A stretch of 48,290 nucleotides of DNA from a virus. Every line of letters starts with the position of its first letter. Positions within the stretch are counted from its first letter, which is position 1. A program made the position numbers and the translations under genes. Below are positions 14,841-48,290 of this stretch, piece by piece. The stretch covers positions 1 through 48,290 of IMG/VR virus record IMGVR_UViG_3300034166_000800. One strand, given 5' to 3'. Under the pieces are notes generated by a model. The model worked only from the letters and a program-made list of their open reading frames with translations, was not told where the DNA came from and made no database searches.

Positions 14841-16304
14841 TTAGTCTTTCACCTCAACCATGCCGTTGTAAAAATAGAGCGTGTTTGCATTTACCGGGGC
14901 GCTGGTTGAGTTGTTTACAGTGACCAAGTCTATAAATGCCCCCACGGCAGTTCCCGAAGGGCCGTTGCTTAAAGTTAGCAGTGGAGTTGTCGATGGGCGC
15001 GATGGAGCCTTGCTCGCTGCTGCATGACTAAAAAATAACTGAATGACACCATTGGTTCCTTTTGAAAGCAGAAGCTGCATCTGCCGCGCCGATGTCATCG
15101 TAAAGTTAGTGCTAAACGAGGACGTTGTGTAGTTGGTTCCGTCGTGACTAAATAAACGCAAGTTTGCCTCGCCAGCTGTCACGCCATCTCTGGTAATTTC
15201 GACGCCGAATCCTCGTCCTGTTAAAGCGTTACTGTTTGCTGGTGTGGGCACTGCACCGTTTCCTCCCACGACTAGTCGGATGGCGTTTTCCGCGCTGGTG
15301 TTGATTGTTGCAAAAGTCATGCCGACAGCAATGCTCTGACTCAAATTTATACCGTTTCCAGTCGCGGGGTTTAGGTTAAGCGCGCTCATTAGGCTGGCCC
15401 TTGCATATCCGTTGGTGGCCGTGCCAGAAACTAGCTGGCTGCTGTTAAAACCTATGACCGAGGTTGATGACGCCGTCCCAGAATTATTTGTCGCGTAAGG
15501 GCCGAGTGTTCGCACGCTTCCGAGCGACAGCAGTGGGTTGTTGTCTACCAAATCCCGCGTCATCAAGCTCGACCCACTGCTCGCCGTCTGGGAAGGCGCA
15601 AGGTTGCCCGAGCCGTTTAGGGTCGCGTTGCCGGTGGCGGTTAGGGTTCCGCTTGCTGTTACGTTGGAGAACGTGACGTCGTTGGTTGCGCCCAAGGCTA
15701 GGTTGGTGCGCGCCGTCGCTGCGGAGAAGGCGGTGTTGTCAGAGCCAGACCAGCCATAAAAAGCTGGCACTGAAGATGAGACGTTCGTGCCGTAGAGTGC
15801 AAACAGTCCGCCTGAGTTGCGACCGACAAAGCCTGTGTCGCCGCCAGCTCCAAAAATGCCTAGTTGAATGTTGCTAAAGGTCACGGTGTTTGTCGCGCCG
15901 AGGCCGAGGTTTGTCAGGGTGGTCGCCGCTGCCGTTGCCCCACCTAAAAAGGGAAAAGAAATAGGGTTAAGCAGTTTTGTCTCATTGGTCGAAAGGGTAA
16001 GCCCCACAAGCCCACCAGAGGTGTTGATCTCCGCGTTCGTGCCAAGGATGGCAACTTGAGCCGCCGCAGTGTTAGTCGCCGTAAAGACCGCATTTCCTAG
16101 CGTAGTCCCGCCGAGGTTGGTGCGGGTGGTTGCTCGGGCGTTGGTCGAAAATTGCAGCGCATTTGTGAAGGTCAGAGAATTGCTGCCGCTGTAAACTATT
16201 TGCCCATTCGTTGTGTTATAGCCCAGCGACTTGATCGTCTGCCCTGCGGCGGGAGAAGCAGCCAGGGCGGCGGCGGCGAGGAGGATGAGGAGGCGAAGTT
16301 TCAT
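14841..16304 (-). CDS. Tail-fibre-like protein with an N-terminal Sec-type signal peptide
   Basis: 487 residues. Residues 1-21 (MKLRLLILLAAAALAASPAA followed by G) form a textbook signal peptide with an Ala-x-Ala-like cleavage region. The rest is Thr/Asn/Ser-rich beta structure with repeats of T-N-L-x-L-G-A-T-N-x-V-T-F-S-N at ~56-73, ~127-145 and ~196-214, like trimeric fibre shafts. The C-terminal ~170 residues look like a globular lectin- or sialidase-like head. A signal peptide on a phage fibre is unexpected, since virions are built in the cytoplasm; the protein may be a decoy, an exported receptor binder, or the peptide may be a membrane-like assembly signal. The 3' end is repeated at the right edge of the window. 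Confidence 0.65.
   Translation of the reverse strand: MKLRLLILLAAAALAASPAAGQTIKSLGYNTTNGQIVYSGSNSLTFTNALQFSTNARATTRTNLGGTTLGNAVFTATNTAAAQVAILGTNAEINTSGGLVGLTLSTNETKLLNPISFPFLGGATAAATTLTNLGLGATNTVTFSNIQLGIFGAGGDTGFVGRNSGGLFALYGTNVSSSVPAFYGWSGSDNTAFSAATARTNLALGATNDVTFSNVTASGTLTATGNATLNGSGNLAPSQTASSGSSLMTRDLVDNNPLLSLGSVRTLGPYATNNSGTASSTSVIGFNSSQLVSGTATNGYARASLMSALNLNPATGNGINLSQSIAVGMTFATINTSAENAIRLVVGGNGAVPTPANSNALTGRGFGVEITRDGVTAGEANLRLFSHDGTNYTTSSFSTNFTMTSARQMQLLLSKGTNGVIQLFFSHAAASKAPSRPSTTPLLTLSNGPSGTAVGAFIDLVTVNNSTSAPVNANTLYFYNGMVEVKD
14866..14992. repeat. 127-bp exact direct repeat, internal copy
   Basis: Identical base for base to 48164-48290, the last 127 bases of the window. Upstream on the + strand (14841-14865) the copies already differ (G14865 versus A48163, and one more difference at 14844). 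It lies inside the 3' end of the fibre-like gene. 127 is a k-mer length commonly used by short-read assemblers. Confidence 0.97.
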
Positions 16305-16314
16305 TGGGCTTTCG

Positions 16315-16842
16315 TTATTTGGTCGCTGTCAAAATTCCATCGTTGTCCACTGTGATCGTCCAAAGGCTTGAGTCTGCCGACAGCAGCTTGAAGGAGGCCG
16401 CTGCCGTAACAGTCGGCACACCTTCGCCGCCACGGATTACGTCATTGTAAATGGTCGCGGAGGTCGGCAGCGTGGAGGAGGTCGTGCCGGATTCGGTCCA
16501 CTCAATTTCGACCTTGGCCGATATGCTGTCCTCGGTGTCATGCGGGAATTCGGCGTTGAGGTTGGTGGTATTTAGGTTGAGGTCGAACTGATAAACGGTG
16601 GTTGTCCCCGTTCCTGTCTTGGTAAACGCGGCGTCATTGGCAAGAAATGAGCCAGCAAAGGTCTTTTTAAGCCCCATCTGGCCCGTCGCCCCGGCTGCCA
16701 ATTCGACCACCGTGCCGCCGCGAACGAACTGGACTTGCACCGGCACAATGTCGCGGCGGGTAAAAAAGAGCGTGCTGACCCGCTGAAGAAGAACCGGGCT
16801 GACCACAAATTCGCGGGAATCCAAGTTGACGTAGACCTTCAT
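16315..16842 (-). CDS. Phage tail-associated beta-rich protein (175 aa)
   Basis: Starts MKVYVNLDSREFVVSPVLLQ. Predominantly beta, Thr-rich, resembling upper-baseplate or fibre-attachment proteins. Its end (LWTITVDNDGILTATK) matches the end of the 70-residue protein at 47017-47229 (FALSVDDDGMLTTTRL), so both carry the same short C-terminal module. It sits between the glycan-gene cluster and the fibre. Function not established. Confidence 0.55.
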   Translation of the reverse strand: MKVYVNLDSREFVVSPVLLQRVSTLFFTRRDIVPVQVQFVRGGTVVELAAGATGQMGLKKTFAGSFLANDAAFTKTGTGTTTVYQFDLNLNTTNLNAEFPHDTEDSISAKVEIEWTESGTTSSTLPTSATIYNDVIRGGEGVPTVTAAASFKLLSADSSLWTITVDNDGILTATK

Positions 16843-16869
16843 CCTTGACCTCGCGCCTGTGTCAAAGGG

Positions 16870-17322
16870 TTAGCGGCTGGCTATTTCCCAAGAGAACGGA
16901 AACGCATCTGGCCTGCGGCGGTCCTCATCTGGATCGGCAGGGTCGTATTCGTGACTCGGCAAGTTAAGAATGGATGCCTCGCGGTGGCCGTGGCAGGGCG
17001 TGAACCCGTGGAACAAGCCAGCCGGGATGACCAAAAGCTGCGGGTGGTCGGCGGCAAGGATGATCGTCTCGCCGCGCATGGCTTGCGCGTCCCAGATGCC
17101 GACCTTGGCCGCGCCGGCCACGCAATACCAGCGGTCTACTTGCAGCCGGTGGCGATGCCAGGCTTTGACCACGCCCGCCGAGGCCGTGGTGATGTATGCT
17201 TGGCCGAACCCGTGCGCGTCATCCGATGCCCGGTGGATCTCGGTCAGGCGGCCTCTCTCATCGAGGTGGGCGGTGAGTGGGCGGATCTGGGCTAACATGG
17301 GCATCCCAAAATGTTCCACCAT
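16870..17322 (-). CDS. RmlC-like cupin, dTDP-4-dehydrorhamnose 3,5-epimerase-related
   Basis: 150 residues (an alternative ATG at 17298 would give 142). RmlC hallmarks: DERGRLTEI at 21-29, VVKAWHRHR at 51-59 with the likely catalytic His56, IPAGLFHGF at 99-107, and a C-terminal EYDPADPDEDRRRPDAFPF, close to the Y-D-x-x-x-P-D-E-x-R ending of that family. Full-length RmlC has about 180 residues, so this is a compact relative. It could epimerise a nucleotide sugar or only bind one. It overlaps the DUF3431 gene by 31 bp and probably supplies or modifies a sugar for the neighbouring glycosyltransferases. Confidence 0.75.
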   Translation of the reverse strand: MVEHFGMPMLAQIRPLTAHLDERGRLTEIHRASDDAHGFGQAYITTASAGVVKAWHRHRLQVDRWYCVAGAAKVGIWDAQAMRGETIILAADHPQLLVIPAGLFHGFTPCHGHREASILNLPSHEYDPADPDEDRRRPDAFPFSWEIASR

Positions 17323-17981: not shown

Positions 17982-17982
17982 A

Positions 17983-22172: not shown

Positions 22173-23789
22173 TTAAGCGGGCATCAGCGAACCGTTGCCG
22201 TTGCGGATGTAGTTGATTCCCTCGGCAATGGCGGCAAGGTAGTTGTTCGATTTCTTTTGCTCGCGGACAGCTTCAGCCGCCGGGTTGGCCGCGTCGGAGA
22301 ACCGAGCAAAAGCCGCGCCCCCACCTACGCTTTGCAGGCTTTGGGCGATAACGCCGGCACTGCTTTTGCCCCCTGCTGCGCTTTCCATGTCTTCCATTAG
22401 CGGAGTCTGGGTTTTGGTGGTCCCAAACTTTGCGCGGACGGTTTGGCGGTTGGCCTCCATTTGCGCGGTGATGTCGTTTACTAAGGCGTCTCTGGCAGCT
22501 TGAAATTTACCTGTGTCAATCTGGCTTGCCCCTTGCATTGCCTCATCAGCGGCAGCAATAGCACTGGTAAAACTTTGCAAAGCCTGTTCGCGCAACTGAT
22601 CAATTGGTCCTTTTAGGTTGGCTGCGGCGGCGTTTTGTAGACCTAACTGTGCTTCACCGGCTGCGTCTGCTGCCCCGATGATGCTATTTAGTGGCGAATC
22701 AAGGACTCCAGCAAGTGCTGGTATTTCTCGCAAAGCGCCCAACAAGTCAGCAACAGACATTGCAATGGCTCGGCCAAAGCTCAATGCCGCAGCAAGAAGG
22801 GCTTGTCCAAGCCCGGCCCAAAATGCCGGCTGCGTAACTACCTGCATGACTTTTAGAAAGTCTGCTGGTATGTCGATAAATCTTTGGACAAGAAATGCGG
22901 TGATGCCAATAAACCCCTTGTAAATTGCGTTGAGCAACTCTCCTGCCGACAGCTTGAATTGGGCGCTTAACAAATTCCCCAAATTCCCCGAGGTAATCAC
23001 CGTCAGGCCAAAGGCAATCGCATTGCCCAGGTCTTGCCCAAGGCCAGACAGGTCGATGCCGTCTGCGGCCTCAAGAAGGGGCATAAGCGCAGGGACCAAA
23101 GTGTCGGCCACCCCGACAAAGAATCCCTGCATCTTGGTGGCCACGCTGCCGAGGATGTCGGATGCCTGGTCAAACAGATTGGCGTTGCGGGTCAGGATGT
23201 CGGCCTGATCGCCCACGCTGCGGGCAGCCTCGGCCATTGCCCCCGAGTTGGCAAAAAGGGTGAGCATCTCGCCGCCAGACTTGCCAAAGATCTGCATGGC
23301 AGCGGCAGCCCGGCCTGCTGGATCGGAAATGGAATTGATGGCTTGCCCGATTGCCGCAAATTGCGATGAGGCGTCCATGCCGCGCAGCCCATCCACCGAG
23401 ATGCCAAGCATCTTAAATGCTTCAGCCGCCGGCCCCGTGCCGTCGCCCGCTTCAACCAGGGCGCGCTGCATTTTGTTGATTGATGGTCCCACCTTCTCGG
23501 CGGATAGCCCGTTGCGGGCAAAGGCTTCTTGCAGGATGCGAAGCTCGCCTGCGGCCACGCCTGTGCGGCTAGAAAGGTCTGAGAGAGCCCCAGCGAGGTC
23601 GAGCGCGCCCTTGATGCCAACGGCAAGGCCAGCGGCTGCGGCTGCGGCAGCGGCAAAGCCAGCGGCCACCCCGCCTAATACGGCAGGCCCGGCAGCGGCC
23701 TTGAATTTGGCCATGCCGTTTTCTGCGGATTTGATCCCTCGGTTAAATCCCGAGGTGTCGAGAGTCAGCTTGGTTGATACCGTGGCCAT
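22173..23789 (-). CDS. Tail tape measure protein
   Basis: 538 residues. Opens with KLTLDTSGFNRGIKSAENGM, a typical tape measure start, followed by a very hydrophobic Ala/Gly stretch (~34-58) and long helical Ala/Gln-rich segments. A further hydrophobic region spans ~290-370. It is placed directly after the tail chaperone frameshift pair and the 212-residue gene, as in lambda-type phages. Tape measures scale with tail length, so 538 residues predict a fairly short siphovirus tail. Strong call from composition, N-terminus and gene order. Confidence 0.85.
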   Translation of the reverse strand: MATVSTKLTLDTSGFNRGIKSAENGMAKFKAAAGPAVLGGVAAGFAAAAAAAAGLAVGIKGALDLAGALSDLSSRTGVAAGELRILQEAFARNGLSAEKVGPSINKMQRALVEAGDGTGPAAEAFKMLGISVDGLRGMDASSQFAAIGQAINSISDPAGRAAAAMQIFGKSGGEMLTLFANSGAMAEAARSVGDQADILTRNANLFDQASDILGSVATKMQGFFVGVADTLVPALMPLLEAADGIDLSGLGQDLGNAIAFGLTVITSGNLGNLLSAQFKLSAGELLNAIYKGFIGITAFLVQRFIDIPADFLKVMQVVTQPAFWAGLGQALLAAALSFGRAIAMSVADLLGALREIPALAGVLDSPLNSIIGAADAAGEAQLGLQNAAAANLKGPIDQLREQALQSFTSAIAAADEAMQGASQIDTGKFQAARDALVNDITAQMEANRQTVRAKFGTTKTQTPLMEDMESAAGGKSSAGVIAQSLQSVGGGAAFARFSDAANPAAEAVREQKKSNNYLAAIAEGINYIRNGNGSLMPA

Positions 23790-23790: not shown

Positions 23791-24429
23791 TTATTTCGCC
23801 TCCAGACCCGCCTGTTGCGCGGCTTGCTTTTGCACGAAGTCCACTCGCTTGATCATGGCCCAATAGCGTTTCCGCATTGCGGCTTTGACCCCGCGCTCTA
23901 CCCAATTCTTTTGCCCTGAGTAAACCGACTTGTTGGAAAGCTCGACCTCGATGGCGCGCCCTGTGGTCTTGATTTTGCCAAAGCCGGGACTGCTGTGGCG
24001 GGTAATCCAAGTAGGCAGCTTGGCCCCGAGGGTTGACGCGGCGTTTTTCCAGCCGGCGGCCATCTTGCCAACGCGGCCCAGCATCAGCTTGCGATAAGCC
24101 GGCAGGCCAGCGGCTTTGACCTTGGCGATGCCTTTTGGCACGCGGCCCCTACGGTTGCGCGCCGAGGTGTGAACGCGGGAAAGGTTGCGCTCGGCCTTGG
24201 CGGCCTTGGATGACTTAAAGAGTTTGGCCAAGTCATTTTTGACCGTTGTCTCGCCGCCTTTCTTGTTCATCTCAAACTTCTTGTTCGGTGGCGTGACCCC
24301 GACCAATTCGACAACGAGCAGCTTGGCCTGCTGCTTCAAATTGGCCGTGACGCTGCGCTTGCTGTTGGCTTGAAACTTGCGAAGCGCGCCCTGGAAGGCT
24401 TTATCGTCTACTTCAAAACGGGGCTTCAT
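23791..24429 (-). CDS. Basic protein before the tape measure (212 aa)
   Basis: Starts MKPRFEVDDKAFQGALRKFQ. Strongly basic, with many Lys and Arg clusters (RNRRGRVPKGIAKVKAAGLP). Its ATG overlaps the TGA of the frameshifted chaperone product (ATGA at 24426-24429). The opening resembles HK97 gp10-like tail completion proteins, which also start with a short acidic strand followed by a helix; this is a weak likeness. Role in tail assembly is likely from position. Confidence 0.6.
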   Translation of the reverse strand: MKPRFEVDDKAFQGALRKFQANSKRSVTANLKQQAKLLVVELVGVTPPNKKFEMNKKGGETTVKNDLAKLFKSSKAAKAERNLSRVHTSARNRRGRVPKGIAKVKAAGLPAYRKLMLGRVGKMAAGWKNAASTLGAKLPTWITRHSSPGFGKIKTTGRAIEVELSNKSVYSGQKNWVERGVKAAMRKRYWAMIKRVDFVQKQAAQQAGLEAK

Positions 24430-25069
24430 TCTGTCTGAAACCGCTCTGTCAAAGCCGCCATGCGCTCAAAGGCATCGTTGGTTTCCTTGGCCGGTGGCCC
24501 GGGCGGCACGGTCCAAACGTCATTGGCCCGCAGGGCGCAGTGCTGGTATTGCAAAAGGCGGGAAAGCGGAAGCTGCCAAAGGATATAGTCCTCGCTCCAT
24601 CCCGTCTCCCGCGCCAGCGTGAAAGCGAAAGTCGCAATCCACGCTGGCTCAATTAGTTTCCCGGCGGCGATTCCTGCCGCTGCCCACTGCTGGGCTTTTC
24701 GACAATCTCTACTTGGGCCGCTGCGGCCATGTCACTGACGCGCTGGATCTCAACCATGACCTCGGGCAAAATGTTCAGCGGGATAGATAGCTGGTAGCGG
24801 AGAAGCTCGTCCTCGATCTTCTGAGGGTCGCGGATGACTTGCAGGATGCGGTCAATGGGTTCGCAATGCGCCCAGAGGAAACCCGATACCTGGCGCATTT
24901 GCTCAATCTGGTCGAGCGGCTGGTCGGGTGCCTCGCCGGTGAATTGGGTCAGGCCGAGCTTCTTGCAAAGCGGCAGGCTGCCCACGGTGAATGGCCGCAG
25001 CTTAAAGTCGCCGATCTCCCGCAGGCGCGGCTCAAGAAAAGCCTCCTCGGTCAGAGCAGTTTTAGCCAT
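24426..25069 (-). CDS. Tail assembly chaperone, long form made by -1 ribosomal frameshift (gpGT-like)
   Basis: The short chaperone frame is read to GGA (24659-24661); slipping back one base on G-GGA-AAC gives GGG-AAA and then 76 more codons in the -1 frame to TGA at 24426-24428, for 214 residues in all. The extension begins LIEPAWIATFAFTLARETGW and contains SEDYILWQLPLSRLLQYQHC, a conserved-looking, Trp-containing domain that has no start codon of its own in frame and codes sensibly to the exact ATGA junction with the next gene. This matches the G-T/GT arrangement of lambda-type phages, where the T domain recruits the tail tube protein. Frameshift efficiency cannot be judged. Confidence 0.85.
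24653..25069 (-). CDS. Tail assembly chaperone, short form (lambda gpG-like)
   Basis: 138 residues, starting MAKTALTEEAFLEPRLREIG, with a compact helical body (LPLCKKLGLTQFTG, RQVSGFLWAHCEPIDRILQV) and a flexible Ser/Gln/Pro-rich tail that ends GQRQESPPGN. Position two genes upstream of the tape measure is where phages encode G/GT-type chaperones that coat the tape measure during tail assembly. The gene stops at TAA directly behind a slippery heptamer, so this is the main product and a longer form is made by frameshifting. Confidence 0.8.
   Translation of the reverse strand: MAKTALTEEAFLEPRLREIGDFKLRPFTVGSLPLCKKLGLTQFTGEAPDQPLDQIEQMRQVSGFLWAHCEPIDRILQVIRDPQKIEDELLRYQLSIPLNILPEVMVEIQRVSDMAAAAQVEIVEKPSSGQRQESPPGN
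24656..24662 (-). promoter_or_regulatory. Programmed -1 frameshift site GGGAAAC
   Basis: On the minus strand the zero-frame codons are CCG-GGA-AAC-TAA, so G GGA AAC fits the canonical X XXY YYZ pattern and lambda's GGGAAAG is one base different. The stop codon follows the heptamer immediately, which pauses the ribosome and ends the short product there. Confidence 0.85.
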
Positions 25070-25494
25070 TTTGCTTTCTCCGTCTCGGTGGCGTCGGGGC
25101 GGATCTTCAAGACTCGCTGGCCCTTACGCATTAGGATCATTGGCTTGTTGGCGCGGAAGTGCTCCCGCCACAGGCTCGCGTTTTCGTGGTAGTGGCGAAG
25201 GTTGGCGATGGGTGAATCGGCGTGCGCTTCGCACCACTTCAAGTCCATGAAGCGGGTGATGAAGTCTTTGAGGGCCACGTTCTCGCCGGCAATGTTGGCC
25301 GTGCTCAAATCATTGAAGACCCAAAGGGTTTCGCGCTGGGCGCTTTCTTTGGTTTCCTCAACGTAGTCCTCAAAATTTTTGGCCTCGTTCTTGTCGATTA
25401 GCTGATAGCCGAAGGTGAGCGCGGCCACGGCAGACGCAGTCTCAAGGCTTGTGAGCGGGTTGTCGGCCCGCGATTTAACCACTCTTATTTGCAT
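25051..25494 (-). CDS. Hypothetical tail protein (147 aa)
   Basis: Starts MQIRVVKSRADNPLTSLETA; mostly helical and charged, with several Trp in the last third (DLKWCEAHADSP, ASLWREHF). It overlaps the chaperone start by 19 bp and lies between the tube-like proteins and the chaperone, so a tail-assembly role is likely. No known domain seen. Confidence 0.6.
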   Translation of the reverse strand: MQIRVVKSRADNPLTSLETASAVAALTFGYQLIDKNEAKNFEDYVEETKESAQRETLWVFNDLSTANIAGENVALKDFITRFMDLKWCEAHADSPIANLRHYHENASLWREHFRANKPMILMRKGQRVLKIRPDATETEKAKWLKLL

Positions 25495-25500
25495 GAATGC

Positions 25501-26578: not shown

Positions 26579-26922
26579 GGTGTGCCGACCTCCAAAATCC
26601 ATTCCTGGGCAAGCGGGCTAAAATGCTCCCGCACGGCGAAGATGTAATAGGTTTTGCTGTTGATCGTGATGGCCGACTTGGCCGAGGGCGGCCCCTGGCT
26701 CCAGACGGCAAACGGGTTGCTCTCGGGCAAATCGCTTTTGCGGAGGCGAACGACAAACTCCACCGGCTTCTGGAACCCGCCGGACTCAAGGTTCAATTCG
26801 GGTTCCCCTGTAGATACCACGGCCTGATAATCCACGTCGCCATAGGTCACGGTGCTGCCGTAGAGGGCGTTGAGCGTGTCGGCCATAGCTGTGGCGAAAG
26901 CGGTGATGCCGGCGCGAGTCAT
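26575..26922 (-). CDS. Head-tail joining protein (115 aa)
   Basis: Starts MTRAGITAFATAMADTLNAL. A helix followed by beta strands (VTYGDVDYQAVVSTG, EFVVRLRKSDLPE, SAITINSKTYYIFAVREH) fits the small head-tail stopper class (lambda gpFII-like). ATGA overlaps at both ends. It is the first connector gene after the glycosyltransferase pair. Confidence 0.6.
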   Translation of the reverse strand: MTRAGITAFATAMADTLNALYGSTVTYGDVDYQAVVSTGEPELNLESGGFQKPVEFVVRLRKSDLPESNPFAVWSQGPPSAKSAITINSKTYYIFAVREHFSPLAQEWILEVGTP

Positions 26923-27503
26923 GCCTTTTGGCCACTGTCAAAGATGGGGTCGCCCTTTTTGCTGACGTAGTTGTAAAAATAAAGGGGCTCGTCTCCCGCC
27001 CACTGCTCGGTTTTCAGATGCGGCAAAAGGCCCAGCGCGTAGTTGTAGTCCTCGCCCCACATAAGGTCGGGGAAGCGGCTGCGGGTGGCTAGGCTTCGGC
27101 GCAGCGGGCAAAGGTGGTGCGGAGTGCGATCATGCCCATACCACTGGAAGTTTTCCTTATAGCGCAGACTGTGGCGAAAGATGGGCGAAGGATGGTAATC
27201 CCGTCCGTCCATTGTGACGTGCATGGTGATGCCTACGCAATCTGGCTTGGCTGCCAAGCACGGCATGATTCGGTCAAGGTAGTCCGCGCTGACCACATCA
27301 TCGTCATCGACAAAAGCAATGTAGTCAGCGGTGGCCTTTTCGATCATGCGCTGGCGCTTGACCCCGATACTTCCCTCGCCCGGGTCGATAAAGTAGCTGG
27401 CGGCTCGGTGCCTTGCGATTTGCGGCTCAAGCAATTTGATCAGGCGCAACAGCATGGCCTCGCGGCCAGGCATGGTCGGAATAAGGATCTGGAATTTCAC
27501 CAT
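26919..27503 (-). CDS. Glycosyltransferase family 2-like protein
   Basis: 194 residues. The opening VKFQILIPTMPGREAMLLRL and ATADYIAFVDDDDVVSADYL (~63-82) give the nucleotide-binding start and the DxD metal site of GT2 enzymes. MWGEDYNYALGLL (~157-169) supplies the ED catalytic-loop motif. It is short for the family (usually 230-300), a minimal GT-A domain. It overlaps the 568-residue glycosyltransferase by 7 bp, so the two are co-translated. Likely acts in the cytoplasm, since no membrane segment is present. Confidence 0.8.
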   Translation of the reverse strand: MVKFQILIPTMPGREAMLLRLIKLLEPQIARHRAASYFIDPGEGSIGVKRQRMIEKATADYIAFVDDDDVVSADYLDRIMPCLAAKPDCVGITMHVTMDGRDYHPSPIFRHSLRYKENFQWYGHDRTPHHLCPLRRSLATRSRFPDLMWGEDYNYALGLLPHLKTEQWAGDEPLYFYNYVSKKGDPIFDSGQKA

Positions 27504-29203
27504 CCGGCGGCGACGGCATCGGGAGCCACCCGCTCAAAGACTGCGCGGCCACGGCGCTCGGCTTCGGGATTTTGTTGCCGCATATACTCGGCGTCCGACT
27601 TGGCCCCCGTAAAAAGCGGGTGGTCGTGGTAGAAATTGATGTGCCTGCCGTCCTTAACCACGCCTTCCTTGTAAGCCCGCCAACTCCATTCAGTGTCCGA
27701 CCAGTAGCCGTCGAACTCAGGGTTAAAGAGCCATTTGCGGCCCGCCCAGTAGGACCAGTTAAAGCAGGGCATGACCATGATCTGATCTTTGCGGAATCCA
27801 TCAAAAACGTGCAGGACAGTGGGCTTGCCCTTGTTTGGTTCCATTGCCTGAACAATCTGCTCGTCCCACCCGTGCGGCGGGTAGCAATCGTCCTGGGCGA
27901 TGAGGATAATCTTGGCCGACTCGGCTGCGGCCTTGGCGGCGGCGTTGTAGTTGGCCACGGCAGATGAGTGACCTTCCGGCACGGCGGCACTGACAGCGTG
28001 GGGAAAATGCTTAATGCCCTCGACCACGGCTTGGTCGGCCTCGTTGACTCCAAACCAATACGAGACAAGCTCGGGGCGTGCGGCCCGCTCCAAATAAAGC
28101 TCCCGCATTTTAATGGCCTGCTCGGGTCGGCACGTCGGGTGTCCCACGGCAATGCGTGGCCGGTGCCGGCGGTGGTATTCGCGGCGGATCTTGTTGGCCT
28201 GCTCAGTTCGCCCCGCCTTGGCCAGTGCCGCACACTTCAAATCGTGCGCCCGCCATCCGTAAAGGCTGGCATCGTGAATCCATGAGGCATCGTCGGGATC
28301 TTCGTGCGCTTCCATGTTGGCACACCACGCCACGGCCTTGGCGGCATCCCCTCGGGCCAGATGCACCTTGGCCAGTTCAGCATAGCCTTCCCTGCGGTGC
28401 GGCATGAGGCGAATGGCCTCAAGCAGTGGGCGCTCGGCCTCCTCAATGTCCTTGAGCCAGCGGCCAATGGACAGATAGGCCAAATACTTTTCCTCCTTGG
28501 CCAAATCGTCCCGCCCGGTAGCCACCACGGCGGCGGTCAAAGCTCCAGTGATGTCGCCCTGCATTTCGCACTCGCGGAAAAGGAACCACCACTCTCGGCC
28601 CGTGCGCTCGGCCTCGGGGATTGCGGTCAGGATGCGTTTGTTGCGCTCCACGCTGCCACGCTTGTTGACCGCCGGCATATGCACCACTTGAAGCTCTTGG
28701 CACCACGCGGCGTGGGTGTCTGGCTTGACCTCGATGTCTTCATGGATGCAGTTGATCCATTTGTCGAAAACCTCGCGGTGGACGAGGCGGATTCGCCTGG
28801 CATAGCTGCCCTGCATGGACGTGACGTAGGGCGCGTATACGGCCTCTTTTGCGTCCAGCTTGCCTGCTCGTATCTCGGCCAGCACCTTCTCGCCTGTAGG
28901 GGCCAGCAAATCGTCGCAATCGGCCCACATAAGCCAGTCGGCATCGGCGGGTGCCAGGGCAAAGGCCGCGTTGCGGGCGGCACAGAAAGAATCGACGTGC
29001 GGCCAGTCGTTGCCCGGGTCGTTAAAATACTCACCAACGGTGCATCCCCGCCCCTTGGCAATGTCTAAGGTGCCGTCGGGCGGCTGGTTGCCGATGGCGC
29101 GGACCACGCTGATTGAGTCAACGTGCGGTTGGAACGAATCAAGAAAGCGGGTGATGTAGTCCGCTTCGTTTCCACAAATTATCCCGAGGTGAATTTTCGG
29201 CAC
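27497..29203 (-). CDS. Two-domain glycosyltransferase with TPR-like middle
   Basis: 568 residues, GTG start. Domain 1 (1-~205): family 2-type, with IHLGIICGNEADYITRFLDS and ADWLMWADCDDLL (DxDD at 95-98). Middle (~215-350): helical repeats (YLAYLSIGRWLKDIEEAERP, GYAELAKVHLARGDAAKAVA) resembling TPRs. Domain 2 (~370-560): a second GT-A-like domain with KIILIAQDDCYPPHGWDEQI and YWSDTEWSWRAYKEGVV. Two catalytic-type domains in one chain suggest two sugars added in turn or a repeating glycan. It lies 110 bp behind the major capsid gene, past two terminator hairpins. Confidence 0.8.
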   Translation of the reverse strand: MPKIHLGIICGNEADYITRFLDSFQPHVDSISVVRAIGNQPPDGTLDIAKGRGCTVGEYFNDPGNDWPHVDSFCAARNAAFALAPADADWLMWADCDDLLAPTGEKVLAEIRAGKLDAKEAVYAPYVTSMQGSYARRIRLVHREVFDKWINCIHEDIEVKPDTHAAWCQELQVVHMPAVNKRGSVERNKRILTAIPEAERTGREWWFLFRECEMQGDITGALTAAVVATGRDDLAKEEKYLAYLSIGRWLKDIEEAERPLLEAIRLMPHRREGYAELAKVHLARGDAAKAVAWCANMEAHEDPDDASWIHDASLYGWRAHDLKCAALAKAGRTEQANKIRREYHRRHRPRIAVGHPTCRPEQAIKMRELYLERAARPELVSYWFGVNEADQAVVEGIKHFPHAVSAAVPEGHSSAVANYNAAAKAAAESAKIILIAQDDCYPPHGWDEQIVQAMEPNKGKPTVLHVFDGFRKDQIMVMPCFNWSYWAGRKWLFNPEFDGYWSDTEWSWRAYKEGVVKDGRHINFYHDHPLFTGAKSDAEYMRQQNPEAERRGRAVFERVAPDAVAAGW

Positions 29204-32860: not shown

Positions 32861-33154
32861 TCAGAGGTGAATCAGCGCCTCGGAATAGTCGGCATAGATC
32901 ATCCCCGCCCCACTGGTTTTGACGGGATCAGTAGGCGGATCAAGTTCGGCAATGAGGTCTTCGACAATGTTGAGAATGTCGCCTTTGGAATACTTGCGGG
33001 CTTGGCCTGACGTGGTGCCGCCCTCAAAGCCGGCGTTGGTAATAACGACCTCCGAGTCGGCAATGGCGTATAAGTCATTGGAGAGCACTTCAAGCTGAGA
33101 CAGCGTTTTTGTGCGCTTGAGATATTTGCGAATGCCAGCCAACTCAGAGGTCAT
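32861..33154 (-). CDS. Head-tail joining protein, gpW-like
   Basis: 97 residues, starting MTSELAGIRKYLKRTKTLSQ. A helical protein between the large terminase and portal genes, the same place lambda W occupies. Slightly longer than lambda W (68). ATGA overlap with the terminase stop. Helix patterns (LSQLEVLSNDLYAIADS, GDILNIVEDLIAELD) fit; no signature motif. Confidence 0.65.
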   Translation of the reverse strand: MTSELAGIRKYLKRTKTLSQLEVLSNDLYAIADSEVVITNAGFEGGTTSGQARKYSKGDILNIVEDLIAELDPPTDPVKTSGAGMIYADYSEALIHL

Positions 33155-34881
33155 GCTTTTGCTGGCTCTGTCAAAGGTTCGGGCGAGTCTTGCTCAAAGT
33201 GCGCTCGCATCACCCACCACGTCACTAAATGCAGTTTGGTGCAATCGCCATAGTGGTCACCGGCCACCTTTTTCCAAACGCGCCCCTTGGTTTTTTCGCT
33301 CTCAATGATCTTCTGGCCCATATGGCCAAGCAAAAAGTCTTCGGAGGCATCGCTGGGGAAATGCATTTGTGGTGGTGACTTTTTGGAGATGCGCTCGATG
33401 TAGAGCGCCACCTTGGCCGAAAAGTCCACATAGCGGTAAAGCACCAGCGTTGGGTAGTCCTTCAAGTGCGAGGCGTCCCAAGTTCCTGCCTGCGCTGCCG
33501 ATCCTTTGGACGGAAAGAACACGCCGCCCGCTCGGGCGCACGTTGCATAGACCCGCTCGGTGAAGTCGCCCGAGTCGATTAACCCGCACGTCACGCGCAC
33601 CGGCTCGTCGCGGCCTTCAATCTTCCACTCCATGCGCGAGGCCAGCGCAATCAAGTCTTCAATGGCGAAGGTTGTGCCGTAATCGACAACATAGCCCTCG
33701 CCTTGATCTGTCCACGCCATGACTGACCAATGCGTTTGCATTTGCCCAGGATCGGCGCAAAACGTGACGAGTGCCGGGTTAACGGGCATTTGGCCGCGCT
33801 TGTAACTCGGGTCGCGCATCGCCACCACCGAATCGTCTGAAACGTGCGCCGTGCGGTCCTCCCACCGCTGCGCCATGCGCTTTTGCAGAAACTGCTTGCG
33901 CGGCTCGCGGTCGCCGCGCTGCCACGCTTCCTCGGCCCGCACCCACTCGGCGGCAAGTTTGCCCCAGCCAATCCACCAGACGGCCAGCGCGTTCCAGTTA
34001 AAAGCCAACCGCCCGGCCACGCCATCAGCCACTTTGATGTAATCGCTTGAAGCCGACAACTGGCGACGTGTCTCAGCGGTATCCTGAAAGCGCGCATCGC
34101 ATCCGGCGCACAGCATATGGGTGGAGGCGGCCAATCGCTCCCAGTCGATTCCGCCGGCAGCCTTCCGCTCGCGCTCAAAGCGCACCAACTCAAATCGCCA
34201 CGGTTGCCGGCGCTGGCAATGCGGACACTGCCATTGCCACTGCCACTGCTCGCAAAGGTCTTGGGCCGCATGAAAATCGTCTCCCTCCTCCCCGCCCTGG
34301 CTGACCAGCACCACCCGCGAGTTCCAGCGGTCGTGCGTGCGGCGGCGGAATTCTTCGACCATGCCGTGCTTCCATCGCCACACCTCGTCACCAATGCACC
34401 AGCGAATCGACTTTTCTTGAAGGTTGCTAATGTTGGCCCCGCCAATGAAAAGCGGCATATGGGGAAAAAGGATTTCGGTTTTGCGCTTGGCGTGGCGGTC
34501 GCGGGGAAAGAGCCGAGCCACAGGTGCCGACGCCTCAAAGACGGGGCCAAGCCTTGTCTCTGCCCATTCCTTTGAGAGTTCGTCAGTCTGGCCCGCAAAC
34601 AGTGACGGCCCTGGAGCCTGCGCCACCACCCACGCCAAAAGACATTCAAACAAGGTAGTCTTGCCCGACCCCACCGGCGCGCAAACCACGACCTCGTCGT
34701 TGGTGTCCTTTGCGATTTCTTCAAGCGGACGGTTTAGCCACGGCGCGGTTTCTCGGCGGAAGCGCGGGTTGCGGGCCGAGTGCGGCAACTCTACGTTGCG
34801 CTCGATCCACTCTACAATGCCAAGGCGGTCGCCCGTCTTGACGCTATCACTAAAGCCCGGCGCAAGCATCGGCCATTGCAC
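33151..34881 (-). CDS. terL: Large terminase subunit (lambda gpA-type)
   Basis: 576 residues. Walker A at 68-75 (APVGSGKT) after an N-terminal segment with LPHSARNPRFRRETAPW; a following ATPase with SLFAGQTDELSKEW. A Cys pair set CPHCQRRQPW and CAGCDAR may bind zinc. The nuclease part opens with VTFCADPGQMQTHWSVMAWT and includes GLIDSGDFTERVYATC. It packages DNA through the portal. The length is near that of gpA-type terminases (~640). It overlaps the small subunit gene by 32 bp; a second ATG at 34869 is also possible. Confidence 0.93.
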   Translation of the reverse strand: MQWPMLAPGFSDSVKTGDRLGIVEWIERNVELPHSARNPRFRRETAPWLNRPLEEIAKDTNDEVVVCAPVGSGKTTLFECLLAWVVAQAPGPSLFAGQTDELSKEWAETRLGPVFEASAPVARLFPRDRHAKRKTEILFPHMPLFIGGANISNLQEKSIRWCIGDEVWRWKHGMVEEFRRRTHDRWNSRVVLVSQGGEEGDDFHAAQDLCEQWQWQWQCPHCQRRQPWRFELVRFERERKAAGGIDWERLAASTHMLCAGCDARFQDTAETRRQLSASSDYIKVADGVAGRLAFNWNALAVWWIGWGKLAAEWVRAEEAWQRGDREPRKQFLQKRMAQRWEDRTAHVSDDSVVAMRDPSYKRGQMPVNPALVTFCADPGQMQTHWSVMAWTDQGEGYVVDYGTTFAIEDLIALASRMEWKIEGRDEPVRVTCGLIDSGDFTERVYATCARAGGVFFPSKGSAAQAGTWDASHLKDYPTLVLYRYVDFSAKVALYIERISKKSPPQMHFPSDASEDFLLGHMGQKIIESEKTKGRVWKKVAGDHYGDCTKLHLVTWWVMRAHFEQDSPEPLTEPAKA

Positions 34882-39795: not shown

Positions 39796-40109
39796 TTCAC
39801 CGGCCTCCAATCGGATTCTTGCTCCGGCTGATAGTCGTGAATTTCCAGCACCGGCTGATTAAAAGCTGCGCCGTCAATAAACTCTTCGGCTTCTTGTTTG
39901 CTTTTAAACCGAATAACTTGAATGCCTCGACCACGCGCAGGAGTAAGTAAGCTAAAATCCTGCCAGCAGCTTCCAGCGTCCGCGCTTCGCCATTGAGGAG
40001 TGAATGTCCATTCGAGAAGTGTTTTAAACTCACGAACGCGAAAGCGTCCTCCGTTCATTGTGTTCATCAGGGGCGGCCAAATGACCGACTCCCATGCAGT
40101 AAAGCTCAT
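39792..40109 (-). CDS. Hypothetical early protein (105 aa)
   Basis: Starts MSFTAWESVIWPPLMNTMNG, ATGA overlap with the exonuclease stop. It contains many Trp and a middle segment KSKQEAEEFIDGA. Its first residues could also be linker. No family recognised. Confidence 0.5.
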   Translation of the reverse strand: MSFTAWESVIWPPLMNTMNGGRFRVREFKTLLEWTFTPQWRSADAGSCWQDFSLLTPARGRGIQVIRFKSKQEAEEFIDGAAFNQPVLEIHDYQPEQESDWRPVK

Positions 40110-40942
40110 GCCGCCTCCTTCATCTCAGTCTGGGGCCTCGGGTCATACCCCTTGCGAAAGCGCCAGATCGCACACATCTGGCAAAACGCCTCATAGGCTG
40201 CGACCATCTTTTCCTTGTCGTGCTTGACCACCTCGAGGCGGCCCGGCTCGGTGCTGCTAATGAACAGATTCGCCGCGACAACGTGCTGCAACTGGCCAGC
40301 GCCGTAATGCGTGGCCGCGTAGGCCGCCAACTGCAAAAGGTGTTCGTCGTAGGCTTCGACCTTCTCGCCCTCCTTCGTTTTCTTCGTCTTGAAGTCGAGA
40401 ATGCCCATCTTCCCAAAGCCGTCGCCCCAGGTAAACAACGCATCCACTCGGCCGGCGAAGCCATGCACCGCATTGACCAGGACAATTTCCGAGTGAGTAA
40501 CCTTGACGCCGACTGAGCGCATCCATTCCAGCACCGGCTTGACGTAAGGCTGCATCTCTTTGCTCGGTTCCTCGGCAGATCCGCGCATCAGATTCTCGAT
40601 AGCGTTGTGGATCTTAGTCCCGAGGTCTGCCGCCTCGCCCACCTGGCTCATGGCGTGTGCGATGGCCCGATCAGCAAACCTCTCGAGCGGCTCCTCGCCC
40701 TGCGGCCCCGGGATGGCAATGGCCGCCTTGGCCGCCTCGCGCATCTTCCACTTGGTCAGTTGCGGTTTGTCCAGAATGCCAATGATCGTCGTGACCGAGG
40801 GCAAAAGGTTTAGTTTGCGCGCATCCCGCAGCGTGGTCGTGCGCGTCCCGTCTCCGTCCTTGTTCGGCACCGTGTGACAAGGTTTGCCGTCCAAGGAATA
40901 CCAGTGACTCGACCCGAGGGTCGGCTTCGTTATGATAGCCAT
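40106..40942 (-). CDS. PD-(D/E)XK exonuclease, RecB/lambda-Exo-type
   Basis: 278 residues. LGTKIHNAIENLM at 108-120 has the conserved His112 of RecB-type nucleases; HGFAGRVDALF at 160-170 supplies Asp167; MGILDFKTKK at 179-188 supplies Asp183 and Lys185; LLQLAAYAAT at 202-211 is the Q-x-x-x-Y motif. These are the ordered motifs of phage recombination nucleases that resect double-strand ends. With the SSB-like gene (41023-41544) and the resolvase it forms a recombination module; no clear annealing protein is visible. Confidence 0.83.
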   Translation of the reverse strand: MAIITKPTLGSSHWYSLDGKPCHTVPNKDGDGTRTTTLRDARKLNLLPSVTTIIGILDKPQLTKWKMREAAKAAIAIPGPQGEEPLERFADRAIAHAMSQVGEAADLGTKIHNAIENLMRGSAEEPSKEMQPYVKPVLEWMRSVGVKVTHSEIVLVNAVHGFAGRVDALFTWGDGFGKMGILDFKTKKTKEGEKVEAYDEHLLQLAAYAATHYGAGQLQHVVAANLFISSTEPGRLEVVKHDKEKMVAAYEAFCQMCAIWRFRKGYDPRPQTEMKEAA

Positions 40943-40960
40943 TGCAATCGTAAGGGTTGC

Positions 40961-41016
40961 GGGGCGGAGGGGCTGCGGCTTCCCGTCGAAAGTTGGCCGC
41001 GTTGCCTCCCCGCCCC
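40961..41016 (-). terminator. GC-rich inverted repeat between SSB-like and exonuclease genes
   Basis: GGGGCGGAGG at 40961-40970 pairs with CCTCC(CC)GCCCC at 41005-41016, leaving a 2-base bulge and a 34-base loop. It fills most of the 80-bp gap between the two genes. It may stabilise or attenuate the message; no T run follows. Confidence 0.35.
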
Positions 41017-41022
41017 TATTCC

Positions 41023-41544
41023 TCAGAACGGATCTGCGCCCTTGACCGGCCCGAGCACCTCGAGGTCCGAGTCATCTGACACATTCCCGCCGACCTTGGC
41101 GAAGGCGTTGACCGCCGGCACCTTGTCCGCGTAGTCCTCCAACACCGGGGCAATGCCCGTGATGTTGTTGTAGGTCTTTCCGTTGCGGGCCTCCTCGGCC
41201 GACACGGTGATCTGCGCGCCCTGGCCCTTGAGGGATTCGGTGTCCCAACCAGCTTTTGGCACCTCGCCCGTCCATGCTTTGATGAACTTGGTCAGGTTAG
41301 CCTTCGGCCCACTGGTGATCTTCATCTCGCGGGTGGCGATTTTGTGGAGTTGGCCGCTTTTCGTTTTCACGCCGAAGACAAAGCGCGTCACGTCCACCTT
41401 CTCCATTTCCTCGGATTCATACTTCTTGCGATCCACCCCGTAGAGGTCGATCACGTCGGTGCAAACTGCGAGGTAGGTTCCGGCCGGTGGTGGTGGCCCC
41501 ATGTCTGCGAGTCCGCCGCCGCTTGATTCTGGTATCTTTGCCAT
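41023..41544 (-). CDS. Single-stranded DNA-binding-type protein
   Basis: 173 residues. Beta-rich OB-fold-like pattern (AGTYLAVCTDVIDLYGVDRK, DVTRFVFGVKTKSGQLHKIA, GKTYNNITGIAPVLEDYADK) and an acidic C-terminus ending VKGADPF, similar to the D-x-x-P-F tip that bacterial SSB uses to bind partners. It lies beside an exonuclease and a resolvase. Not a canonical SSB sequence; could be a DUF669-like or gp2.5-like protein. Confidence 0.65.
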   Translation of the reverse strand: MAKIPESSGGGLADMGPPPPAGTYLAVCTDVIDLYGVDRKKYESEEMEKVDVTRFVFGVKTKSGQLHKIATREMKITSGPKANLTKFIKAWTGEVPKAGWDTESLKGQGAQITVSAEEARNGKTYNNITGIAPVLEDYADKVPAVNAFAKVGGNVSDDSDLEVLGPVKGADPF

Positions 41545-41582
41545 GTGTGTTCTCTTTTCTATTGGTGCTTAGTTTATTTCAG

Positions 41583-41960
41583 CTATCCGGCGCACCCGGC
41601 GGATTGCTGTTGTGCGTCAGCCGGCAGCACTTCGGCGGCCTTGAGCTTCTGCAAAATCAAAAGAAAATCTTCCCCTGCCATCGTCACTAGCCACGGCTTG
41701 CTTGAGGTCTTGTGCGCCACGGCCGGCGGCTGATCGAAAGCGGCAGCCGTAGCCGCCTGCTCGTAGGCCTGGCGCACGTTGAGCTTTTCGACGAACTTGA
41801 CCTCCCACCAAAGACCGCTGTTGTCCTCGACATCCGCGCCACCACCGCCAAAGGCTGCCTGCTTGTAGCCGGCGCGCTCGGCCACAAAGCCGTAAGCGCG
41901 CAGCACGTCACGCCACAGACGCTCGCCTCGTTTGCCTTTGTCTCGGCTCATCTTACTCAT
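41583..41960 (-). CDS. Holliday junction resolvase-like endonuclease (Hjc/PD-(D/E)XK)
   Basis: 125 residues from ATG 41960, with GGAGG 6 bases upstream; a longer frame to 42086 overlaps the previous gene. GKRGERLWRDVLRAYGF (Glu13), GGADVEDNSGLWWEVKFVEK (Asp43, Glu53, Lys55) is the E...D...E-x-K pattern of Hjc-type resolvases. Length matches Hjc (~120-140). It would cut branched DNA made during phage recombination or packaging. Confidence 0.78.
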   Translation of the reverse strand: MSKMSRDKGKRGERLWRDVLRAYGFVAERAGYKQAAFGGGGADVEDNSGLWWEVKFVEKLNVRQAYEQAATAAAFDQPPAVAHKTSSKPWLVTMAGEDFLLILQKLKAAEVLPADAQQQSAGCAG

Positions 41961-42243
41961 CTTGGCCTCCTCCAAATTCATACTCGGGGTCGTATTTCTC
42001 CCGCACCGAATCCCTGACTTCTTCCAGCGTTGCGCCCCGTGCGCCGGCCATGAGCTTGACCCGCAGAATTTCGCGCTCGGCCTCAAGCATTGCTACGGTG
42101 GCCCGTAGTTCGTCGGCCTCACACTCAAGGCGCACAATGCTCGCGGCCATTGAGTCTTCGACGGAATAGCCAACCGAGGCGGCTTTTGCGAACCCCCCAA
42201 GGTCCACCGCCCCGGCTGGCATTCTCCCTACGAGAGTGCTCAA
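41953..42243 (-). CDS. Coiled-coil hypothetical protein (96 aa)
   Basis: TTG start overlapping the upstream TGA (TTGA); ATG at 42222 is an alternative. Residues ~30-75 are a strong heptad-type helix (RLECEADELRATVAMLEAER). Acidic C-terminus. Similar in style to the 58-residue coiled-coil gene that precedes it. Unknown function. Confidence 0.55.
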   Translation of the reverse strand: MSTLVGRMPAGAVDLGGFAKAASVGYSVEDSMAASIVRLECEADELRATVAMLEAEREILRVKLMAGARGATLEEVRDSVREKYDPEYEFGGGQDE

Positions 42244-42416
42244 AGTGTTTCCTCCTGGTTGCCGCCACGATATTTGCGGGCGATGGCAAGCGCCTCGTCG
42301 AGCGCCAACGTCAAACGGCTGTTCTGCTCGCGCAGGGCTTGGTTCTGCTCTTCAACAATGGCCACCTTGCGCTTCATGTCTGCGAGGTAGTCCTCCATCT
42401 CCATTTCGTGACTCAT
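42240..42416 (-). CDS. Small coiled-coil protein (58 aa)
   Basis: Starts MSHEMEMEDYLADMKRKVAI, found by translating the gap; it links the genes on both sides by ATGA/TTGA overlaps. Leucine- and Gln-rich helix (VEEQNQALREQNSRLTLALD). Possibly dimeric, unknown role. Confidence 0.6.
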   Translation of the reverse strand: MSHEMEMEDYLADMKRKVAIVEEQNQALREQNSRLTLALDEALAIARKYRGGNQEETL

Positions 42417-44037: not shown

Positions 44038-44044
44038 ACTTGCA

Positions 44045-45486: not shown

Positions 45487-45487
45487 G

Positions 45488-45975: not shown

Positions 45976-45985
45976 TGTCGACGCC

Positions 45986-46012
45986 TTAGACACATCCCGC
46001 CAACGTGTCTAA
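45986..46012. terminator. Hairpin between converging operons
   Basis: Perfect 8-bp stem TTAGACAC/GTGTCTAA with an 11-base loop, 10 bp past the end of the plus-strand operon. No T run on either side, so it is a moderate terminator candidate. TAGACA recurs at 46027-46033 (CTAGACA). Confidence 0.45.
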
Positions 46013-46049
46013 AAATCACAGAAATCTAGACAGATGCTTTTTGTGCAAT

Positions 46050-46070
46050 AGTTCAAGCGTGGCTTGAACT
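46050..46070. terminator. Hairpin at the end of lysis cassette 2
   Basis: Perfect 8-bp stem AGTTCAAG/CTTGAACT with a 5-base loop; it overlaps the stop codon of the amidase (46069-46071). It may end the minus-strand lysis transcript where it meets the plus-strand operon. Confidence 0.45.
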
Positions 46071-46689
46071 ACTCAGCACTTTGTATGCGCTTGGACAAAT
46101 ATTCCTTGAAGCGCGCCAGTTCACTCGGAGCCAGATCGTCCTTTCGCCCCGGGCTGACGGTGCGGTGGTCCGTAACGTCGGCCAGCGTAAGGCCGTATCG
46201 TTTCATTAGCGGAAGAAGGTATTCAGCCATCGAGGCCATCTCGGCCTCGCCAAGTTGGCGGGTGTTGGTGTCGCCCTCAAACGCCGCACCGATGGCCCAA
46301 CTATTTAGATCCCGCTTCCCACGCCAGGACGAAACGCCAGCGTGCCAGGTGCGCTCGTCAGGGTCGGCCAGCACCGTCCTGCGCCCGTCTTTGGCGACGA
46401 TGATGTGGTAGCTGACCTTGCTTGCTGGGTCCATGCACCACGCCACGCTTCCGGCATAGCTTCCTGCCGTATGGTGCAGCACTACGGCCTGCGGCTTGAT
46501 ACGGCGACCAGCCGAGACATTCGGCGTGTTAAGCAGCTTTTCTTTGAACCTTGGGGCGTTTGGCTTCGGCTTGATGCTTTGCCCTGTCGTGGAGGATGCG
46601 CTGGATGGCAATGACGATTTCAGCGAGGTCGGTGCTGGGCCATTTTGCGAGGCCCCGGATAAAGCTCTTAACCATTGGATCAGTTTCAC
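46069..46689 (-). CDS. Endolysin, N-acetylmuramoyl-L-alanine amidase (cassette 2)
   Basis: 206 residues, Amidase_2-type. Zinc and catalytic candidates His72/His73 (VVLHHTAGSYAG), His116 (RTWHAGVSSW), His175 with Lys183 and Asp185 (VTDHRTVSPGRKDD). N-terminal ~60 residues form a Ser/Pro/Lys-rich linker. About half the catalytic domain matches the amidase of cassette 1 by eye. ATGA overlap with the lipoprotein gene. It degrades the cell wall at the end of infection. Confidence 0.9.
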   Translation of the reverse strand: MKLIQWLRALSGASQNGPAPTSLKSSLPSSASSTTGQSIKPKPNAPRFKEKLLNTPNVSAGRRIKPQAVVLHHTAGSYAGSVAWCMDPASKVSYHIIVAKDGRRTVLADPDERTWHAGVSSWRGKRDLNSWAIGAAFEGDTNTRQLGEAEMASMAEYLLPLMKRYGLTLADVTDHRTVSPGRKDDLAPSELARFKEYLSKRIQSAE

Positions 46690-46826: not shown

Positions 46827-46828
46827 GA

Positions 46829-47020: not shown

Positions 47021-47229
47021 AGACGCGTGGTCGTCAGCATCCCGTCATCGTCCACAGATAGCGCAAACTCGGCCCCGGTGGCCGTGCGTAGCGTGACGCT
47101 GGTCACTCCATTAGCCAGGACAGCCGACGCCCCTTGCGGTCCTGTTGCGCCGATCTCAAGGACGCTGGCCTGGCTAACCTCCAAGATGAGGGTGGCCGTG
47201 CTTGCCTCGATGACGAGTTCAGCCGCCAT
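47017..47229 (-). CDS. Small tail-associated protein with collagen-like motif (70 aa)
   Basis: Starts MAAELVIEASTATLILEVSQ and contains IGATGPQGASA, a short Gly-x-y motif, then a C-terminal module FALSVDDDGMLTTTRL that matches the end of the 175-residue tail protein. Likely a fibre or baseplate accessory. Absent from cassette 1. Confidence 0.55.
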   Translation of the reverse strand: MAAELVIEASTATLILEVSQASVLEIGATGPQGASAVLANGVTSVTLRTATGAEFALSVDDDGMLTTTRL

Positions 47230-47233
47230 GACG

Positions 47234-47581
47234 TTACCTTGTGACGTTGCGGGAAATGGTGGCCACGCCTTGCAAAAGCCTTGTGACGATGCCCGAGCCG
47301 CTTACCAATTCAAGGTCGTAAACCCCTCGCCCGGCGGTCAGGCCGGCGGTGTCGGTGGCCGAGATGGTCAAGGTGATCGTGCCTGCGGCCCCGCCCAGGG
47401 CAATTCTGCCATTGGCCGTGGTCAACTCGACAACCGTGGTGGCCGATTCAAGCGTGCTGCGCACTTGCATCCGCGCCGTATAGCCAATGAGGTTTACGGC
47501 CACGCCGTTGTCCTTGTAGGTGATGACCTGGCTAAAGGTCGCGCCCTGCTCAATGAGAATGTCGTAGGTCGTGGCGGCCAT
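47234..47581 (-). CDS. Beta-rich tail-associated protein (115 aa)
   Basis: Starts MAATTYDILIEQGATFSQVI, with strands (MQVRSTLESATTVVELT, GTITLTISATDTAGL) and YDLELVSGSGIVTRLLQGVA near the end, a pattern of small phage baseplate proteins that bind sugars or anchor fibres. It lies between holin and the 70-residue gene, a cassette-2-only insertion. Two bases from the holin stop. Confidence 0.55.
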   Translation of the reverse strand: MAATTYDILIEQGATFSQVITYKDNGVAVNLIGYTARMQVRSTLESATTVVELTTANGRIALGGAAGTITLTISATDTAGLTAGRGVYDLELVSGSGIVTRLLQGVATISRNVTR

Positions 47582-47582
47582 G

Positions 47583-47777
47583 TTATTTCTTGCGTTGGTA
47601 GTCGCGCCAGACGGACAGCAAAGTTATCACGCCGATGGCCAGACCGAGGATCAAGCCGCCGATCCGCAGATATAGTTCAAATTGGGCCATAAAGCTGACG
47701 GCCACTGATCCAGTAGTCGCCAACGTGCCGAGCGCGCCACGTTCAACGGTGGACAAGTGTTGATCCAAGACGCTCAC
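47583..47777 (-). CDS. Small membrane protein, holin or antiholin candidate (cassette 2)
   Basis: 64 residues, starting MSVLDQHLSTVERGALGTLA, one or two hydrophobic segments and a basic end (WRDYQRKK). Clear relative of the 68-residue protein of cassette 1. ATGA overlap with the 120-residue gene. Confidence 0.65.
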   Translation of the reverse strand: MSVLDQHLSTVERGALGTLATTGSVAVSFMAQFELYLRIGGLILGLAIGVITLLSVWRDYQRKK

Positions 47778-48136
47778 GGCATTGCTTCTAATGCCGACCA
47801 GGCGGCGAGCAAACCGTCCCGCAGTTCGGTGGGCAGGGCTTCGCTGCTAAACACTACGCTGCGCGATCCGGCGGCAGCGTGCGCGGTTACGGCTGCGGAG
47901 AGCTTTGCGCGGGTCAAGGTGGCGTTGCCTTCCTCATCCATGTCGCCAGCAAAGCCGTCTGGCTCGATGAACACTTGGCCGACACTTTCGCCTTCGACTA
48001 GTTGCGACTGGAGCCATGCGAGAAGGGTCTGCGCGGTTGCGGCCAGGTCGCCGTCTAGGGGGATGGCGGTGGTGGTGGCGTAGTCGCCGCTTTTTGCGTA
48101 GCGGGTTAGCTGGTTGTTGGAGAGTAAGAGTTTCAT
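47774..48136 (-). CDS. Conserved hypothetical protein of the fibre-lysis junction, copy 2
   Basis: 120 residues, starting MKLLLSNNQLTRYAKSGDYA. About 11 residue differences from copy 1 (14476-14838). It keeps VEGESVGQVFIEPDGFAGDM and the C-terminal ALPTELRDGLLAAW unchanged. Located directly after the repeated fibre 3' end. Confidence 0.65.
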   Translation of the reverse strand: MKLLLSNNQLTRYAKSGDYATTTAIPLDGDLAATAQTLLAWLQSQLVEGESVGQVFIEPDGFAGDMDEEGNATLTRAKLSAAVTAHAAAGSRSVVFSSEALPTELRDGLLAAWSALEAMP

Positions 48137-48138
48137 GG

Positions 48139-48290
48139 TTAATCTTTCACCTCAACCATGCCATTGTAAAAATAGAGCGTGTTTGCATTTACCGGGGCGC
48201 TGGTTGAGTTGTTTACAGTGACCAAGTCTATAAATGCCCCCACGGCAGTTCCCGAAGGGCCGTTGCTTAAAGTTAGCAGTGGAGTTGTCG
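48139..48290 (-). CDS. Tail-fibre-like protein, C-terminal end (cut by window edge)
   Basis: 50 codons end in VEVKD and a TAA at 48139-48141. The protein sequence is the same as the last 50 residues of the 487-residue fibre (14841-16304), with only two base differences in the last 25 bases of the gene and none in the other 127. The rest of this copy lies outside the window, or, if the window end reflects an assembly overlap, is the gene already seen at 14841-16304. Confidence 0.85.
   Translation of the reverse strand, partial: TTPLLTLSNGPSGTAVGAFIDLVTVNNSTSAPVNANTLYFYNGMVEVKD
48164..48290. repeat. 127-bp exact direct repeat, terminal copy
   Basis: Identical to 14866-14992 and reaching the last base of the window. 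Inside the fibre 3' end. Confidence 0.97.

Follow-up and report, generated by a model that had tools for sequence, protein, structure and literature searches.

A 48-kb virus record as a probable rho-shaped assembly chimera of two unrelated phages sharing a fibre-gene tip

Chimeric contigs usually make up less than 5% of the large contigs in simulated viromes (PMC5610896), and unrelated phages are already known to exchange their receptor-binding parts (PMC8265664). The stretch of DNA analyzed here, referred to as the window, comprises all 48,290 bp of the IMG/VR record IMGVR_UViG_3300034166_000800, which IMG/VR classes as linear. Based on sequence comparisons, we consider it about 95% probable that this record is a rho-shaped assembly chimera, in which a fragment of a second phage is followed by a 33,298-bp siphophage circle. 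The coordinates of the features are collected in Table 1.

The sequence-only reading had claimed that the last 127 bases of the window repeat an internal segment base for base, directly after a mismatch, and that 127 is a common assembler k-mer size. Self-comparison of the window reproduced the match, with 127 of 127 bases identical and differing bases immediately 5′ of it (A at 48163 vs. G at 14865), while the k-mer size agrees with the JGI metaSPAdes assemblies, which use k = 33, 55, 77, 99, and 127, with 127 as the top k-mer (PMC10604447). The exact run reaches the end of the contig at 48290 and is therefore truncated at 127 bases. The match closes a gap-free 690-bp homology (14303–14992 vs. 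47601–48290) with 82.3% identity, and a chance match is therefore excluded. Identity along this homology was approximately 62–66% at 14300–14400 and approximately 85% in much of 14500–14700, dipped to approximately 75% at 14700–14800, and was 100% from 14866 on. By this profile, the homology is not a simple recent duplication, but consists of two diverged versions that are identical only while the contig lasts. A 35-bp run on this diagonal was the only further exact repeat of at least 25 bp in the window, and neither the exact 127-mer core nor the window start was found in the other viral contigs searched.

Relatives of each window part were gathered by protein searches of viral contigs. Four independent siphophage relatives (G016, 32.3 kb; G017, 28.4 kb; G018, 37.1 kb; G003, 39.3 kb) each contained, on a single contig, homologues of the tail genes at 17983, 16870, and 16315, followed by the fibre region and then by homologues of the genes at 47774, 46961, 46686, 46069, and 44486. 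They continued from the 46-kb genes to those at 44–37 kb wherever the contig extended that far. The fibre-like homologue at the fibre region was resolved in G016, G017, and G018; in G003 it was weak, a 36% match along part of the homologue, and several ORFs of fibre type intervened there. The break point of contig G003 lies at another place, with the homologues of 34850 and 35317 on either side, and each module occurs once in this contig. Since the fibre region of these relatives leads to the right end of the window (46–48 kb), the proposed circle, and not the linear window, represents the natural order. The overlap that closes the circle is exact and one k-mer (127 bp) long, the closure joins genes that are neighbors in all four relatives, and the 487-aa fibre-like gene stays intact with an identical protein sequence. 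The earlier proposal that 14866–48163 closes into a coherently ordered 33.3-kb circle thus matches the gene order of these contigs. The circle contains the siphophage set of a terminase pair, portal, head maturation protease, major-head-protein match, and tape measure in one copy each, as well as a primase/helicase, an exonuclease, a RusA-like resolvase, a metallophosphoesterase, an endolysin, and glycosyltransferases. Two of the glycosyltransferase genes (26919–29203) adjoin the major head protein gene. This unit is very probably a complete circular genome that was mislabelled as linear, and it should be treated as a separate record.

The relatives of the left part follow a different order. 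The contigs G023 (39.7 kb) and G024 (31.7 kb) run from a homologue of P0001 and carry, in the same order, homologues of the 2129-aa, 666-aa, endolysin, 120-aa, fibre-like, 256-aa, and portal-like genes before reaching their own SU10-type major capsid gene, and no siphophage structural genes were found in either. A further contig, L079/G025, matches window positions 10696–14838 unbroken at 87% identity, and beyond this match it carries its own fibre-like gene, 256-aa gene, and 745-aa portal-like gene. Since the left-part relatives lead into their own capsid genes without a siphophage structural module, 1–14865 belongs to another phage, as had been suspected when this part was described as another genome entering the same k-mer. 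The two parts of the window were thus found in different genomes in independent assemblies. Tetranucleotide similarity was 0.82 within the siphophage part, 0.74 between the parts, and 0.70 within the second part, and gave no clear separation.

The second phage is probably short-tailed, to judge from the SU10-type capsid and the missing tape measure in its relatives; SU10_MCP (Pfam PF17236) was also present in L033 and G009. The 2129-aa protein is probably an internal virion or ejection protein, and its HExxH motif reads GHEIGH, which is metallopeptidase-like. Several other proteins without family are also encoded in 1–14865. The 745-aa gene was labelled portal-like from its position and size, and no family match was found for it or for the 256-aa gene. 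No solved structure matched the fibre-like, portal-like, or 666-aa protein, and the AlphaFold pLDDT was 32 for the fibre-like and 34 for the 745-aa portal-like protein. The second-phage relative G009 (3300044644_001692) carries an integrase at 24344–25495, and at least some members of the group may be temperate.

Table 1 Coordinates of the features in the 48,290-bp window
Feature	Position	Strand	Remarks
Partial genome, second unrelated phage	1..14865		Relatives L011–L017, G023, G024, G025
2129-aa giant protein, HExxH motif	1170..7559	-	Without PHROG/Pfam family; homologues in SU10-type relatives
666-aa tail/connector-like protein	11019..13019	-	Weak PHROG tail and head-closure matches; 98% identical in G025
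Endolysin, N-acetylmuramoyl-L-alanine amidase, second phage	13377..13964	-	Pfam Amidase_2, E = 7e-20
Second-phage homologous flank, holin-like ORF and 120-aa gene	14303..14865	-	~80% identical to 47601–48163
120-aa gene, second-phage copy	14476..14838	-	Product 91% identical to 47774–48136 product
487-aa fibre-like gene, siphophage	14841..16304	-	Last 25 bases (14841–14865) from the other phage in the contig
Shared 127-mer, internal copy	14866..14992		3′ end of fibre-like gene; proposed de Bruijn branch point
Fibre-tip DNA, apparently exchanged	14993..15938	-	94% identical to second-phage contig L033, end abutting 14993
Siphophage genome unit, circular or circularly permuted, 33,298 bp	14866..48163		Single structural set; order reproduced in G003, G016, G017, G018
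Tape measure protein, siphophage	22173..23789	-	PHROG 9483, E = 1.4e-20
Terminase large subunit, siphophage	33151..34881	-	PHROG 15
Endolysin, siphophage	46069..46689	-	PHROG amidase/endolysin; 45% identical to second-phage endolysin
Siphophage homologous flank	47601..48163	-	Continuous with siphophage fibre-like gene in L034/G016, L035/G017
120-aa gene, siphophage copy	47774..48136	-	3′ of fibre-like gene in G016, G017
Shared 127-mer, terminal copy	48164..48290		Equals 14866–14992; contig end; proposed return to branch vertex

The proposed mechanism starts from a siphophage and an unrelated second phage that would both carry the same fibre-gene tip, and this common tip would be the reason why the assembler joined them. 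In a de Bruijn graph with k = 127, a single 127-mer vertex (14866–14992) would be common to both phages. We infer that assembly proceeded along the second phage from 1 to 14865, passed into this vertex, completed a single turn of the siphophage circle, and halted when the vertex recurred at 48164–48290, so that the continuation of the second phage is missing from the record. An end of exactly this kind is left by a path that joins a circle at a common k-mer and terminates once it comes back to it. The second-phage contig L033 (3300034166_000742, 6.4 kb) ends exactly at 14993, one base past the shared 127-mer; its identity to the window is complete up to 15104 and 94% over 14993–15938. This contig looks like the missing continuation, cut back at the shared vertex. 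Trimming of contigs at a shared vertex is a behavior of such assemblers.

The same signature was found in the siphophage relative G018 (IMG/VR 3300044974_000662), whose last 127 bases equal its positions 3493–3619 exactly and sit in a terminal repeat of approximately 3 kb with 78–92% identity. Among 13 contigs rebuilt in full, the exact 127-bp signature occurred in G018 and an imperfect terminal duplication in G009, and no others were found when 121 loci, of which many covered a contig only in part, were screened for an end-to-internal repeat. The ends of G009 (1–2209 and 39838–42318) are 82–97% identical and lie beside the fibre locus, possibly reflecting two merged strains or an assembly end effect. 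The second-phage contig G027 (3300042882_000845) ends beside the endolysin and within the 256-aa gene, with the fibre locus missing, and assemblies seem to break at this locus.

The record could also be read as one genuine mosaic phage, at least 48 kb in size, in which the fibre/120-aa/lysis region is duplicated; the sequence-only reading had offered a mosaic of this kind as its alternative. The contig is continuous, its main genes all run in one direction, and both lysis regions are intact, but none of the relatives has both halves, the halves adjoin different neighbors in independent contigs, and the relatives of the left half carry their own capsid genes. Moreover, for a true duplication, a length of precisely 127 bp up to the end of the contig would have to be accidental, and the same accident would have recurred in G018. 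This alternative is therefore extremely improbable. We regard as very unlikely a chimera formed in two steps, in which the assembly would have left the second phage near 14.3–14.5 kb for another siphophage strain before entering the 33.3-kb siphophage at 14866. Such a path would fit the resemblance of 14303–14484 to both lineages (L017, 82.8% over 14117–14372; L035, 71% over 14287–14484), but the unbroken match to L079 at 87% identity indicates that the 120-aa region is native to the second phage.

In principle, a real recombinant or cointegrate could also have arisen by homologous recombination through the shared tip, with the fibre gene of the second phage as the insertion site for the whole siphophage. 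This would need two genomes, roughly at least 73 kb, to be packaged, no relative shows such an arrangement, and the contig ends at exactly k, so that this explanation is barely credible. The chimera of a second-phage fragment and a siphophage circle agrees with the finding that each half is continuous with different neighbors in independent contigs. These comparisons strongly support the chimera, and the "mosaic phage" of 48 kb is an assembly artefact.

The segment shared by the two phages appears to be more than an assembly coincidence. The C-terminal part of the 487-aa fibre-like protein is 92% identical to a protein of L033, and the N-termini of the fibre-like proteins are lineage-specific, reading MNRLLTILLLAAG..GQIDNPPTS in the second phage and MKLRLLILLAAAA..GQTxKSLGYNTTNG in the siphophage. 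C-terminal tips together with the downstream genes were common to both lineages in at least three pairs, namely the window and L033, L034 and L073 (84.7% DNA identity over 1109 bp, including the 120-aa gene), and L035 and L072 (86.6% over 449 bp, with 82% over 651 bp and 81% over 542 bp downstream). In these three pairs, high DNA identity was confined to the tip and its flank, on unrelated backbones. As judged from the alignments, both lineages carry the shared segment as a fibre-tip cassette that has genuinely been exchanged. The protein is a putative receptor-binding fibre, based on its repeats, its position, and the head-fibre PHROG match of the L033 protein. A signal-peptide-like N-terminus was observed on the fibre-like proteins of both groups (window 14841–16304 and homologues), which is unusual for a virion fibre.

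The C-terminal tips would be exchanged repeatedly between the two phage groups, along with the 120-aa and holin-like genes downstream, and the conserved flank most likely enables homologous recombination to swap the tip when the two phages are present in a single host. We lean slightly toward a broader model in which two unrelated lineages with different virion plans and probably common Verrucomicrobiota hosts draw their tips from one pool, with the 120-aa and holin-like 3′ genes as the recombination anchor. If this is true, the fibre locus is where cassette swapping would concentrate both chimeras and breaks in assemblies.

The host group is tentatively assigned to Verrucomicrobiota. The closest named relative of the siphophage terminase was that of Akkermansia phage Moulinsart (ON453896), with 29% identity at 94% cover, and two Verrucomicrobia phage records were among the terminase matches. 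Moulinsart is too distant from the siphophage for the same genus, and no matching DNA was found in the named-phage collection. A search of 84,980 species genomes with the 2129-aa and portal-like proteins found no host genome. The two phage groups probably infect the same kind of host.

Left as it stands, the 48-kb record would give the impression of a striking mosaic that carries two lysis cassettes, and taxonomy, gene-sharing networks, and genome-size statistics that use it come out wrong. A simple test for a contig end that repeats an internal segment over exactly k bases uncovered a second record among the relatives. At the same time, the shared tip shows that a putative host-recognition module has genuinely been exchanged by unrelated phages.

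As in the chimeric virome contigs described previously (PMC5610896), a short-read assembler apparently joined two distinct genomes here where they share a region; unlike in those chimeras, one partner is a closed circle and the rho-shaped path ends in exactly one k-mer. The tip sharing is a fresh case of an already known exchange. In the distal-tail and fibre exchange among phages of one host (PMC8265664, with the T4/lambda tip cited there), unrelated backbones likewise carry common receptor-binding tips behind lineage-specific N-terminal parts. Unlike in that case, the partners here are uncultivated and possibly phages of Verrucomicrobiota, the tip travels with the 120-aa and holin-like genes, and both N-termini are signal-peptide-like.
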